A stretch of 33,287 nt of DNA from Gemmatimonadota bacterium (GTDB taxonomy: Bacteria > Gemmatimonadota > Gemmatimonadetes > Longimicrobiales > Gaopeijiaceae), in contig JAQBXY010000033.1 in the NCBI GenBank assembly GCA_027623325.1, forward strand, positions 1 through 33,287, written 5' to 3'. Positions 26,243 to 32,127 of the stretch are shown piece by piece. How positions within the stretch are numbered: the first letter of the stretch is position 1; every line of letters begins with the position of its first letter. A model generated the notes under the pieces. The model saw only the letters and a list, made by a program, of their open reading frames with translations, ran no database searches and was not told the DNA's origin. The position numbers and the translations under genes are program-made.

Positions 26243-26290
<48 letters not shown>

Positions 26291-28005: not shown

Positions 28006-28245
28006 ATGGCAGCACCAACCGCAGCCGAACTAGCCCCCCCGATCTACAAGTTAGAAGACCAGCCCACAGGCGAGCCTTGGCCTTGGTGCTACGTCCCCGA
28101 AGCCTGTGAGATTCTGGGCAAGTCCCCAATCACCCTGCAAAGGTGGCGGACGAACCAGTACGGACCCCCGTCCTCCCGGAACGGAAACCGAGTCGTATAC
28201 AAGAGGTCCGATCTTTACGATTGGATGCTAGGGAGGACCGATTAA
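28006..28245 (+). CDS. HTH DNA-binding protein, excisionase/MerR-like (HTH_17 type)
   Basis: 79 residues. After a loose N-terminus, YVPEACEILGKSPITLQRWRTNQYGPP is a helix-turn-helix with the trailing wing motif VVYKRSDLYDWML, the pattern of small excisionase (Xis)-like and HTH_17 proteins. It could direct excision with the integrase or repress element genes. AAGGA lies seven bases before the ATG. A second ATG (28245) overlaps its stop and has a strong GGGAGGA site, but its frame runs only 40 codons. Confidence 0.8.
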   Translation: MAAPTAAELAPPIYKLEDQPTGEPWPWCYVPEACEILGKSPITLQRWRTNQYGPPSSRNGNRVVYKRSDLYDWMLGRTD

Positions 28246-28288: not shown

Positions 28289-28708
28289 GTGGTGGTTGCC
28301 AAGTCGGAGATTACCCCTGATGACAGCCCTGGCATGTGGCATGTGCATGGGGAACTGCCAGAACTAAAATTTGAATGGTTGCCTCAGAAGATGGCTTCCA
28401 TGGCAAGGACTCTTTCAGAGTCTCAGCAAGTGCAGCCAGCCATGGCGATCATGGGGTGTATAGCTGCGGCTTCTGCCTGTGTGGTTGGGAAGTACCGCAT
28501 TGCTGACATCACAGTGAATTGGGTGGAAGAGTGGTCTTCGCTCTTCGTGATGTTGATTGCCCCGTCAGGGGGCAGAAAGTCCTCCATCTTCTCCAAGCTC
28601 CTCAAGCCTATTGAGCTTTGGCAGAGGTACCGAAGGAATGACCTCGAAGAATGGGTCGGCGAGCGAGTCAGGAACTCGACCTCTGACGCGCTGGACGCTG
28701 GCGAATGA
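28289..28708 (+). pseudogene. Truncated DUF3987-family protein (N-terminal part only)
   Basis: 139 codons at most. KMASMARTLSESQQVQPAM, MGCIAAASACVVGKYRI and WSSLFVMLIAPSGGRKSSIF match the start of DUF3987 proteins, phage/plasmid helicase-primase-like ATPases of 500-800 residues, including the GxRKS phosphate-loop-like turn. After about residue 120 the match ends, codon use turns sharply GC-rich and the protein stops, overlapping the replicase ATG (ATGA). The start is unclear: the well-spaced ribosome site at 28231 serves ATG 28245 in another frame, so a frameshift near 28250-28290 is possible. I read this as a gene cut by recombination. Confidence 0.6.
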
Positions 28709-30558
28709 CGACCGCGACCGCCGAGCATTTCGAGGGAGCCGCCGAGGGCTACCAGGACTTGGGCTGGCCGGTGTTCCCGGTGCGCGGCAAAATCCCGGCG
28801 ACGAAGAACGGGTGCCTGGACGCGACCACGGAGCCGTGGCGGGCCTGGCCCCGCAGTGCCACCGGCGTAGGATTCGCCACGGGCACCGTGAGCGGGATAT
28901 GGGTGCTCGACCTGGACTCCGAGGAAGCCGAGCGTCGGTGGGAGACGATGCAGGACGAGCACGGCGAGCGCATCGCCACCGTGACCGCAAAGACCGGCAA
29001 GGGCTTTCACGTCTACTTCAAGATGCCGCCTGGTCGGGATATCCGAAATTCAGCGGGCAAGGTCGGCCCAGGCATCGACGTGCGCGGTACAGGCGGTTAC
29101 GTAGTTTTGCCTCCGAGCGCGCACCCGGACGGCGGCGTGTACGAGTGGGTTCGGGACAGGTCGCCTGACGACTTCCCGGTGGCCGTGACCCCACGCTGGC
29201 TGGTGGATCTGGTATGCGGTCGAGCGGATACACGCACGAACGCGCCGGCGCTAGGCGAGGTGATCGGTGAAGGCGGACGCAACGCAACGCTCACGAGCTT
29301 GGCAGGCACGCTCAGGCGGCGCGGGATGAGCGAGGAAGCGATAGCAGCCGCGCTGCACGTCGAGAACCGAGGCCGGTGCGTCCCGCCCCTACCTGCTGTC
29401 GAGGTGGACGCCATCGCGTCGTCTGTGGCCCGCTACGTGCCGTCAGCGGGCAGCACTCCCGACGGCACGCCGCGATTCGGCGGCGCGTCCTATGAGTTGC
29501 TCAATGTCGGGCAGTTGGAGGACCGCCCGGTTGCCGAATCGCTAATCACGGGCCTCTTCCCAGAGGGAGCGCTAATCAGCCTCTTCGGAGCGCCAGGGTC
29601 AGGGAAGTCCTTCGCTGCACTCGACTGGGGGATGTGCGTTGCGGGGGGGGAGCCGTGGGCTGGGCGTGCGGTGGGGCAAGGCGGCGTCGTGTACGTGTCT
29701 GGCGAGGGCTCAGGTGGACTCGGCCAGCGTATCCGTGCGTGGCGCGACTGCCATCCGATGGCCGAGGTGTCGGACATTTATTTCCTGCTGGACGCGGTTC
29801 CCTTAATGGACCATCAGGCCGTTCTTCGTTTCGTGGCCACGATACGTGACCGCGTGCCGAACCCGAAGCTGGTCGTGTTCGACACGCTCGCCCGCTGCAC
29901 ACTCGGTGCCGACGAGAACTCAGCGCGGGACATGGGGCTCGCCATTCATGGCGCGGATATCGTGCGCAGAGAGTTGGGGTGTGCTGTCTTGCTCATCCAT
30001 CACACCAACGCATCCGGTGATCGTGAGAGGGGCTCTACGGCACTCCGTGGCGCGGTGGACGTGCTGATGTCCCTGCGAACCGATGAACGCGGCATCACAC
30101 TCAAGTGTGAGAAGTCGAAGGACTCAGAGCCGTTCGATGACATCCGCCTGAAACTGTCAAAGCGTCTGGATTCGGCTGTTCTTACTCCAGATTTCGACGT
30201 TGGAGTAAGGGGGGACTTTTTGACCGCCCGGCAGGTCGAAACTCTAAGGTCACTCCATATCTCGGCACTAGACGACGGGCTCACGGTTTCAACGTGGCTT
30301 GAGGTGTCGGGGCAGAAGTCCTCGTCCTTCTACGGGCATCGAAAGTCCTTAGTGGATAAGGGTTTTGTGAGGCAGCATAGAGAAGGAAGGGGTGCGCGGT
30401 ACACCGTAACTGCGAAGGGTGAAGCCGCCCTTACTCCACTTACTCCAAGTCACTCCAACGGCACTCTGGAGTTAGCTGGCACTTCACTTCCTCCACTCCC
30501 CCCCCTCTTAGGAGGGGGAGAGTGTGGAGTAAAAGTGGGAAAGGATGAAGAGAGATGA
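28705..30558 (+). CDS. PrimPol-PriCT-RepA-type replicase (primase/polymerase-helicase)
   Basis: 617 residues in one chain. Residues 1-165 are a bifunctional primase-polymerase domain: metal-binding Asp69 and Asp71 (VLDLDSEE), TGKGFHVYF with His102 and GIDVRGTGGYVVLPPS with Asp125. Residues ~185-245 resemble PriCT_1 (GEGGRNATLTSLAGTLRRRGMSEEAI). Residues ~275-470 are a RepA/AAA_25 helicase: Walker A GAPGSGKS (295-302), Walker B KLVVFDT and LLIHHTN. The last part has a winged-helix-like segment and a proline-rich tail encoded by repeated DNA. It can probably prime and unwind the element's own origin. The first ~1.5 kb are markedly GC-richer than the integrase gene. Confidence 0.9.
   Translation: MTTATAEHFEGAAEGYQDLGWPVFPVRGKIPATKNGCLDATTEPWRAWPRSATGVGFATGTVSGIWVLDLDSEEAERRWETMQDEHGERIATVTAKTGKGFHVYFKMPPGRDIRNSAGKVGPGIDVRGTGGYVVLPPSAHPDGGVYEWVRDRSPDDFPVAVTPRWLVDLVCGRADTRTNAPALGEVIGEGGRNATLTSLAGTLRRRGMSEEAIAAALHVENRGRCVPPLPAVEVDAIASSVARYVPSAGSTPDGTPRFGGASYELLNVGQLEDRPVAESLITGLFPEGALISLFGAPGSGKSFAALDWGMCVAGGEPWAGRAVGQGGVVYVSGEGSGGLGQRIRAWRDCHPMAEVSDIYFLLDAVPLMDHQAVLRFVATIRDRVPNPKLVVFDTLARCTLGADENSARDMGLAIHGADIVRRELGCAVLLIHHTNASGDRERGSTALRGAVDVLMSLRTDERGITLKCEKSKDSEPFDDIRLKLSKRLDSAVLTPDFDVGVRGDFLTARQVETLRSLHISALDDGLTVSTWLEVSGQKSSSFYGHRKSLVDKGFVRQHREGRGARYTVTAKGEAALTPLTPSHSNGTLELAGTSLPPLPPLLGGGECGVKVGKDEER
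30181..30533. repeat. Iteron-like 9-base repeats, candidate replication origin
   Basis: CTTACTCCA is found at 30181, 30430 and 30439 (the last two directly in tandem), its exact complement TGGAGTAAG at 30201, the variant GTCACTCCA at 30249 and 30449, and complement variants TGGAGTTAG (30467) and TGGAGTAAA (30525). A composite hairpin lies at 30491-30529 (core CCCCCTC-TTAG-GAGGGGG). All are inside the 3' third of the replicase gene, where the protein is low-complexity (LTPLTPSHS, LPPLPPLLGGG). Binding sites for a replication initiator, next to its own gene, are the likely reading. Confidence 0.55.
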
Positions 30559-30990: not shown

Positions 30991-31109
30991 AACGCTCTCG
31001 ACTCGGTGGGGAGCATAAGCCGCTGAAGGCTCCACTGACGAAAGATGAAGACGGCCTCTCCTGTAGTGACTGCAAGGTGTTCATCGAGTTCTCGGTGTTC
31101 CCTGAATGA
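30987..31109 (+). CDS. Very small hypothetical protein (40 aa)
   Basis: ATG 30987 overlaps the previous stop (ATGA) and its own stop overlaps the next ATG (ATGA at 31106). It is basic at the start (KRSRLGGEHKP) and has a C-x2-C pair (LSCSDCKVF). The two-sided ATGA coupling is the main evidence that it is a gene. Function unknown. Confidence 0.5.
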   Translation: MKRSRLGGEHKPLKAPLTKDEDGLSCSDCKVFIEFSVFPE

Positions 31110-31522
31110 GCAAGAGTGATGGTCTGAACAACGGGAAAGACAGCGGGGTGGTGCCGCTCGTCCCACAGGCACATGGCGGTGCGTTGAAAGCTGGTGGCAC
31201 GCCCGGCAATAGGGGCAACGTGAACAGTCCGGGTCGGCCACGCACACGAATCCGCACAGCTTCGGCACTCGCCTACGAAGAACGCATACCCGTACTGACC
31301 GACATCGCGGACGACAAGAACGAGAAGGCTGGTGATCGAATCCGCGCTCTCGATGTGCTTGGTCGGATCGGGCTCTCAGACGATGGCGACAAGGTCAACG
31401 AAGACCTCGTGCGCGAGATGGCAGGCGTCGTGAGAGGGGTGCTACAGTCTGCGCCTGACGGCGACAAACTGCTCGAGGCGATCTACGAGGGCTGGAAGCC
31501 CGTTATCGCGAAGCGGCTCTGA
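31106..31522 (+). CDS. Hypothetical protein, possibly terminase-small-subunit-like
   Basis: 138 residues. A flexible glycine- and asparagine-rich N-terminus contains HGGALKAGGTPGNRGNVNSPGRPR, a basic DNA-binding-like tail seen before the HTH of some phage small terminases. A mostly helical region follows (KNEKAGDRIRALDVLGRIGL, EDLVREMAGVVRGVL). I cannot confirm the family from sequence alone, and no large terminase gene is visible in the window. ATGA-coupled to the preceding gene. Confidence 0.55.
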   Translation: MSKSDGLNNGKDSGVVPLVPQAHGGALKAGGTPGNRGNVNSPGRPRTRIRTASALAYEERIPVLTDIADDKNEKAGDRIRALDVLGRIGLSDDGDKVNEDLVREMAGVVRGVLQSAPDGDKLLEAIYEGWKPVIAKRL

Positions 31523-31791
31523 TGGACGCTCGGACTCACGATCTCAGCTTCGTTTGGACAAGAGAGCACTTGGGGGGCTTCTCGCGCCCGGTCATTGAAG
31601 AGTACCCAGCCTTGGACGTGCGTTGGCTCGCACGGACGGGCTTACTAGGCGGCTCACAGAGCCTAGAATGGAGCGACGGCAGCATCCTCGCACCAAACAG
31701 AAGTAATCGAACGAACGTGAACAAGGGCTGGGACATGCCACATGACATGCGGCATACCCTGACCCATACAAATATCTGGAGACAATCATGA
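31522..31791 (+). CDS. Hypothetical protein, apparently truncated or chimeric
   Basis: 89 residues; ATG 31522 overlaps the previous stop. The centre LDVRWLARTGLLGGSQSLEWSDGS resembles the start of a small domain found in proteins of many environmental bacteria (DVRxLARxGxL...LSWSxG), but it ends abruptly. The tail (residues ~60-89, rich in His, Asn and Thr) matches nothing and has the lower GC of the following genes. This may be the right-hand edge of a swapped module. Its stop overlaps the next ATG (ATGA). Confidence 0.45.
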   Translation: MDARTHDLSFVWTREHLGGFSRPVIEEYPALDVRWLARTGLLGGSQSLEWSDGSILAPNRSNRTNVNKGWDMPHDMRHTLTHTNIWRQS

Positions 31792-32127
31792 CAGTTGCAA
31801 CTACGACTCGTAAGCGAAGAGGAAGCTCAAACGCCTGGGAGAGGCAAGTTGCCCGTGCCCGTTCTATTCCAATTCAAAAGATGTGCGAACGGCTAGATGT
31901 CGAACTCGTACAGCATGATGACGACAAGGAAGGTGAGTCCTGGTGCGGCACCTGCCCGATCTGTGAGGACCTAGCCCCAGGCTTCCATGTCAGCCCTCAG
32001 AAAGCTGGGGGGCGTGGGCCTCTACTTCTGCCGCACCTGCGGAAGTGGAGGCGACAGCTTGAGCCTCTTCATGGCTGTCCGTAAGACGAGCTTCCCTGAA
32101 ACCGTGAGGGAGTTGTCTGATGGCTAG
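31788..32127 (+). pseudogene. DnaG-type CHC2 zinc-finger protein, frameshifted in a G6 run
   Basis: From ATG 31788 the frame reads IPIQKMCERLDVEL and WCGTCPICEDLAPGFHVSPQKAGG, the first half of a CHC2 primase zinc finger (Cys56, Cys59). At the six Gs of 32007-32012 the frame is lost. Removing one G restores GVGLYFCRTCGSGGDSLSLFMAV and SFPETVRELSDG, the second Cys pair and the standard CHC2 tail, ending at TAG 32125-32127. The restored gene overlaps the next ATG by 8 bases, as neighbours do here. As written, translation runs into another frame and stops at 32082-32084. Mutation, sequencing error and slippage are all possible. Confidence 0.72.

Follow-up and report, generated by a model that had tools for sequence, protein, structure and literature searches.

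The 3′ end of a replicase gene in a Gemmatimonadota genome carries short repeats (iterons) on both strands and a GC hairpin, and this stretch (positions 30181–30558) is probably the replication origin of the element to which the gene belongs, read by the element's own initiator through its predicted winged helix. The window, i.e. the whole stretch of DNA that was analysed (33,287 nt), corresponds to a complete contig (G000:C25); the genome has 3.35 Mb. The relevant features, in window positions, are as follows.

26243..26289, minus strand: attL-like site marking the left boundary of the integrated element, 47 bp that repeat the 3′ half of tRNA-Arg(CCT) (100% identity to the end of contig C10)
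26453..27754, plus strand: tyrosine integrase (PF00589 2.9e-15, phrog_1 1e-45)
28006..28245, plus strand: excisionase-like HTH protein (PF12728 9.9e-9, phrog_66 6.9e-7)
28705..30558, plus strand: putative initiator-replicase gene (domain search, RSF1010 RepA homology, structure model)
30181..30209, both strands: inverted iteron pair CTTACTCCA-N11-TGGAGTAAG, coding for the linker between helicase and winged helix
30226..30408, plus strand: predicted winged helix (AF2 pLDDT about 93 in context, 92 alone)
30249..30257, plus strand: single iteron core GTCACTCCA within the winged-helix stretch, kept in L109
30430..30475, both strands: left half of the main array, with two copies of CTTACTCCA, one GTCACTCCA and an inverted TGGAGTTAG
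30439..30555, plus strand: low-complexity coding tail across the array (aa 579–617), predicted disordered (pLDDT 35–41)
30487..30495, plus strand: iteron CTTCCTCCA, left of the hairpin
30501..30518: GC hairpin CCCCCTC-TTAG-GAGGGGG, centre of the inverted iterons; relatives have CCCTTTAGGG-like equivalents
30525..30533, minus strand: inverted iteron TTTACTCCA, right of the hairpin

The element starts at 26243 with the tRNA copy, which is followed by the integrase, the excisionase-like protein and the replicase. ARAGORN located an intact tRNA-Arg(CCT) at the very end of contig C10 (51483–51555); we conclude that the element is integrated in tRNA-Arg(CCT) and that its right end lies beyond the window, so that at least 7 kb of it are visible. 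An N-terminal fragment of a DUF3987 helicase-like protein (28289–28708; 139 aa, 72 of 364 profile positions matched), whose end overlaps the PrimPol start (ATGA), looks like a replaced replication gene. Two further ORFs follow the replicase gene. One (31106–31522; 138 aa) has no Pfam, PHROGs or NCBIfam match, and we take its helical middle part to be reminiscent of phage terminase small subunits; the other (31788–32084) is short, matches a CHC2 zinc ribbon (DnaG-type) weakly and is perhaps a primase remnant.

The replicase consists of a PrimPol domain (aa 16–158), a PriCT-1 domain (aa 185–246) and an AAA_25 RecA-fold helicase domain (aa 274–437) homologous to the hexameric helicase RepA of RSF1010 (phmmer 2.5e-4; profile 4e-13 to 1g8y), with 1olo as the top Foldseek match of the helicase domain (TMt 0.73). 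At the C-terminus, AlphaFold predicted a winged helix (aa 508–568) and then a disordered tail, which agrees with the low-complexity protein end and the winged-helix-like C-terminal part described in the initial annotation. Modelled in isolation, the winged helix matched MarR-type folds (VIA Z 10.5–12.5) and also the centromere-binding folds of TubR and pNOB8 AspA. P4 alpha, its C-terminal structure and RSF1010 RepC were absent among the fold matches listed, which excludes nothing.

A motif scan of the window placed exact copies of CTTACTCCA at 30181+, 30201−, 30430+ and 30439+, and copies with one mismatch at 30467−, 30487+ and 30525−. The seven copies (at most one mismatch) within 30181–30558 compare with an expectation of 2.9 for the whole 33-kb window. 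The core ACTCCA occurs eight times in this region. The initial annotation had counted eight exact or near copies on both strands: both orientations were found, and the number eight holds for the core but not for CTTACTCCA at up to one mismatch. When 30181–30558 was shuffled by synonymous codons with the protein kept, none of 5000 shuffles reached eight ACTCCA (mean 1.7). With any 6-mer allowed, and thus no preselected motif, a count of eight was reached in 5 of 5000 shuffles with codons from within the region and in 3 of 5000 with whole-gene codons; outside 30181–30558, no 378-nt segment of the contig had a 6-mer count of eight. Genome-wide (3.35 Mb), four of the six occurrences of CTTACTCCA lie inside 30181–30558 (reversed control word: 22 occurrences), and no second copy of the array was found elsewhere in the genome.

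The repeats are thus real, but what had been taken for a single iteron region is bipartite: the inverted pair (30181–30209) and the main array (30430–30533) are separated by the winged-helix coding stretch (nt 30226–30408), and an extra core lies at 30249–30257. The GC hairpin was confirmed (stem 30501–30507/30512–30518), and the 121-nt array, taken as single-stranded DNA, folded more stably than shuffled versions (z = −2.8). No perfect DnaA box was present in the window, and an Rfam search of the window gave no match. Between 30100 and 30800 there was neither a sigma-70-like promoter nor a same-strand terminator; the one terminator-like site, a weak one, lay on the opposite strand, and the scan detected no T-tract 3′ of the hairpin.

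We compared this region with the nearest relatives carrying the gene, both MAGs: L109 (Gemmatimonadota, same genus) and L111 (Gemmatimonadales, same family). The locus of L109 (L002/L109) is about 50% identical to the window across the C-terminal half. It has ACTCCA iterons and a CCCCCCCTCTTTAGAGGGGGG hairpin, with the stop codon upstream of most of the array, and the counterpart of the window's coding tail is largely non-coding. The locus of L111 (L003/L111) follows the same plan with the iteron GGTCCA. The inverted iteron pair in the helicase-to-winged-helix linker is kept with its 11-nt gap in all three, i.e. the window, L002/L109 (ACTCCA) and L003/L111 (GGTCCA). As array and hairpin of L109 lie mostly beyond the stop codon, it is the DNA that is conserved and not the protein tail, in line with the earlier proposal that selection acts on the DNA rather than on the protein. 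The opposite pattern, conserved protein tails lacking repeats, was not seen in close relatives. In the window the reading frame runs through the array, so that the candidate origin is encoded inside the gene's 3′ end, whereas in the nearest relative it is mostly outside. The gene of L109 (3476–4933) has window-like iterons, helicase and winged helix, but its N-terminal domain is DnaB-type where the window has PrimPol, suggesting that the primase module is exchangeable.

As the initial annotation had proposed, 3′ gene ends were compared across the helicase family, and repeats of a similar kind, but differing in sequence between lineages, were found. Alignment scans with distant sequences gave too few conserved stretches, and closer sets were used instead. 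The loci (80 from IMG/VR, 80 from genomes, plus phage records) were chosen for similarity of the helicase, and phages from metagenomes make up a disproportionate share of them. An array was scored when at least 5 copies of a 6-mer occurred within −120..+150 of the stop codon, and 2,417 other ORF ends from the same loci served as controls. Arrays were present at 49.7% of 165 RepA-type helicase genes and at 2.6% of the 2,417 controls; with at least 6 copies the values were 34% and 0.4%. Clustering at 60% identity left 81 clusters, of which 42% had at least 5 copies. About half of the family thus has no array at the stop codon. The signal was confined to about −100..+200 of the stop codon.

The region of the window could also be chance or low-complexity sequence, and its encoded tail is indeed of low complexity. 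The codon shuffles, the genome-wide rarity of CTTACTCCA, the array's conservation in L109 and the excess of arrays across the family are all contrary to this explanation, to which we attach practically no probability; a chance origin of the repeats is refuted by the last two.

Among 56 distinct arrays, 48 different 6-mers were used, and both orientations occurred in 55. Array size ranged from 5 to 16 copies, often around a CCCTTTAGGG-like hairpin, and iterons of the same orientation were most often 9 nt apart (8–11 nt), close to one helical turn. The array lies mainly within the coding sequence in 10 of the 56 and mostly 3′ of it in the remainder. Perfect DnaA boxes (TTATCCACA) occurred beside or among iterons only in L053 (5044–5200), L034 (after 5056) and L023 (after 4375) and, judged from these sequences, are not a general feature of the arrays. 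A CCC-TWW-GGG hairpin core was found in 22 of 81 clusters and at 27 of 1267 control ends (p = 1e-15). Array carriers had PrimPol, DnaB-N, Toprim or no recognised module at the N-terminus, and the conserved-core hairpin occurs both with PrimPol (window) and with DnaB-N (L109). Because the N-terminal part varies, the origin appears to be tied to the RepA-type helicase and the winged helix and not to PrimPol.

Hairpins near stop codons are commonly terminators, and hairpin and repeats might act as RNA, terminating the rep transcript or stabilizing its 3′ end. This commonness speaks for such a function; no tool result did so here. The lack of a T-tract and of an Rfam match in the window, the occurrence of iterons in both orientations and with changing sequence, and the rarity of CCC-TWW-GGG cores at control gene ends make it highly improbable.

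Iteron motif identity follows the winged helix and not the helicase domain. In a logistic model of iteron sharing between pairs of loci, the standardised coefficient was 1.28 for winged-helix identity and −0.04 for helicase identity. Within 60% clusters, after dereplication, the partial r was 0.47 for the winged helix (0 of 2000 permutations) and 0.09 for the helicase (312 of 2000 permutations). Pairs with helicases at least 60% identical and winged helices less than 40% identical had a motif in common in 1 of 171 cases. These pair statistics share ancestry.

An exchange can be seen in the DNA itself. Between the loci L054/L061/L066 and L069/L078, DNA is 89–93% identical up to −255 of the rep stop codon, unrelated from there to +94/+81, and again 90–96% identical in the 3′ flank over 1.4–3 kb. 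Judged from this alignment, winged helix, iterons and hairpin were swapped as one block of ~350 bp. The swap, a double crossover, is essentially one event, and the tracking of domain and array could partly reflect physical linkage. A single swap could be due to linkage, which accounts less readily for discordant pairs being almost absent over 13 cluster combinations.

A winged helix reading short repeats may serve purposes other than replication. The iterons could be operator or attenuator sites used by the winged helix to repress the operon that encodes it, with no origin function; the resemblance of the domain to MarR-type repressors and the operator-like look of the inverted pair in the linker would fit. 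Yet the arrays occupy the gene's 3′ end and consist of 5–16 iterons in both orientations around a hairpin, and the window has no sigma-70-like promoter or same-strand terminator there. We therefore consider pure autoregulation unlikely, while autoregulation and origin function could coexist. Still less probable, in our view, is a partition centromere or another maintenance or packaging site bound by the C-terminal domain. The TubR and pNOB8 AspA folds match the winged helix, but its fusion partner is a replicative helicase, often with a primase, and not a ParA/TubZ ATPase, and the array keeps its place beside the rep gene although the elements differ widely in gene content.

We favour an origin, although the missing array in about half of the family and the lack of perfect DnaA boxes in the window speak against it, and from the sequences we infer iteron binding, melting and priming by the following route. 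The winged helix would bind the ACTCCA iterons on both sides of the hairpin and thereby gather at least two helicase subunits or rings at the central GC hairpin. A helicase ring would then be positioned and loaded where the hairpin extrudes or melts. Synthesis would be started by PrimPol in the window, or by an attached or separate primase in relatives, and extended by the host polymerase. Because the hairpin core is conserved and the iterons change, the data suggest a step common to the lineages (melting, loading or priming) as the task of the hairpin, and origin identity as that of the iterons.

Sequenced phages of the family have such arrays, with 15 GTGACA in Rhizobium phage 16-3, 11 GGTACA in Idiomarinaceae phage 1N2-2 and 10 GTATAA in Roseobacter phage CRP-821. 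The arrays of the Rhizobium phages 16-3 and RHph_X2_25 (L189 4605–5010, L024 4620–5000; 15–16 GTGACA across ~380 nt) were the largest seen and have a terminal CCTTTAGG hairpin. No array was present at the stop codon in mycobacteriophages, ReqiPine5, Caulobacter phage RW and ctyzp037 (L025, L028, L191, L192, L194). Knocker has its own DNA polymerase I gene and may use a different initiation route. No DNA polymerase is among the listed genes of 1N2-2, CRP-821 and ct3Oc712, so the host polymerase would extend in these phages. In three complete phage genomes, extremes of GC/AT skew lay mostly at transcription divergences; only in 1N2-2 was one within ~2 kb of the array.

Single features of this system are known from other replicons. 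In lambda O and lambdoid origins, the iterons lie inside the initiator's own coding sequence, as in the window, but O is neither helicase nor primase and its iterons are not at the 3′ end of a helicase gene. The alpha protein of phage P4 unites a Toprim-type primase, an SF3 helicase and a winged-helix origin-binding domain, and the phage has type I iterons at ori1/crr. With primase, helicase and winged helix in one protein and short iterons, it resembles the present system in the way it works; it differs in the types of helicase and primase and in the location of the array. The initiator helicases SaPI Rep and SCCmec Cch2 have their iterons immediately 3′ of their own genes; the C-terminal domain of Cch2 was shown to bind the iterons, which the helicase requires (PMC7581432). 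The family studied here likewise has its iterons where the helicase gene ends or right behind it, but its helicase is of the AAA_25/RSF1010 RepA type and not of the SaPI Rep/Cch family, and its arrays have a central hairpin and lineage-variable iterons and may lie in the coding end. In this family, the predicted winged-helix fold and the iteron tracking point only indirectly to a C-terminal domain that may bind the iterons as that of Cch2 does.

ORF904 of pRN1 is a PrimPol-SF3-winged-helix protein with a stem-loop origin just downstream of the gene; the stem-loop (~100 nt, without iterons) is necessary and, together with the rep operon, sufficient, specific binding was not detected, and stem-loops of a similar kind were recognised by the authors in a few phages (PMC4234260). 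The protein of the window is also a PrimPol-helicase-winged-helix protein with a hairpin at the equivalent place, but its helicase is RecA-fold and not SF3, and its hairpin is short and accompanied by an iteron array. According to the summary in PMC4234260, RSF1010 (IncQ) has a helicase of the same family, RepC and RepB′ as separate proteins, and hairpins at its origin. The likeness extends from the homologous hexameric RepA helicase (1g8y/1nlf/1olo) to the combination of iterons and hairpin, which in RSF1010 are the oriV iterons and the primase-recognised hairpins ssiA and ssiB. However, RSF1010 uses three proteins, whereas here helicase, candidate iteron binder and often primase form a single polypeptide whose gene adjoins the array. 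Family scans of neighbouring ORFs met no separate RepC/RepB′ of the RSF1010 type; PrimPol and winged helix are fused to the helicase. The system studied here therefore combines known features on a helicase family other than that of SaPI, SCCmec, pRN1 or P4. New relative to these is the lineage-specific exchangeable cassette, carried by a helicase of RSF1010-RepA type whose N-terminal modules vary. In the open-access literature (subscription journals being outside the scope), searches gave SaPI/SCCmec, pRN1 and PLE as precedents but no description of such an array on RSF1010-RepA-type phage helicases.

We tentatively propose, at somewhat below even confidence, that phages and integrative elements of several phyla have one modular, self-contained replicon in common: an RSF1010-RepA-type helicase with interchangeable N-terminal modules and an exchangeable cassette of winged helix and iterons around a hairpin of conserved core (CCCTTTAGGG/CCCTATAGGG), at which melting or priming would commonly begin. 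If this is true, a cassette swap would change origin identity, and with it compatibility with co-resident elements, in one recombination step. The origin reading itself predicts, from sequence alone, origin and reader for a large group of phages and integrated elements annotated just as 'DNA primase' or 'RepA', and the ~350-bp swap is a natural exchange in which reader and putative origin moved jointly. Iterons and a CCCTWWAGGG hairpin at the rep stop codon would be a simple DNA signature for finding origins in metagenomes, and with dozens of winged helices, each naturally paired with a short DNA motif, the recognition code becomes testable.
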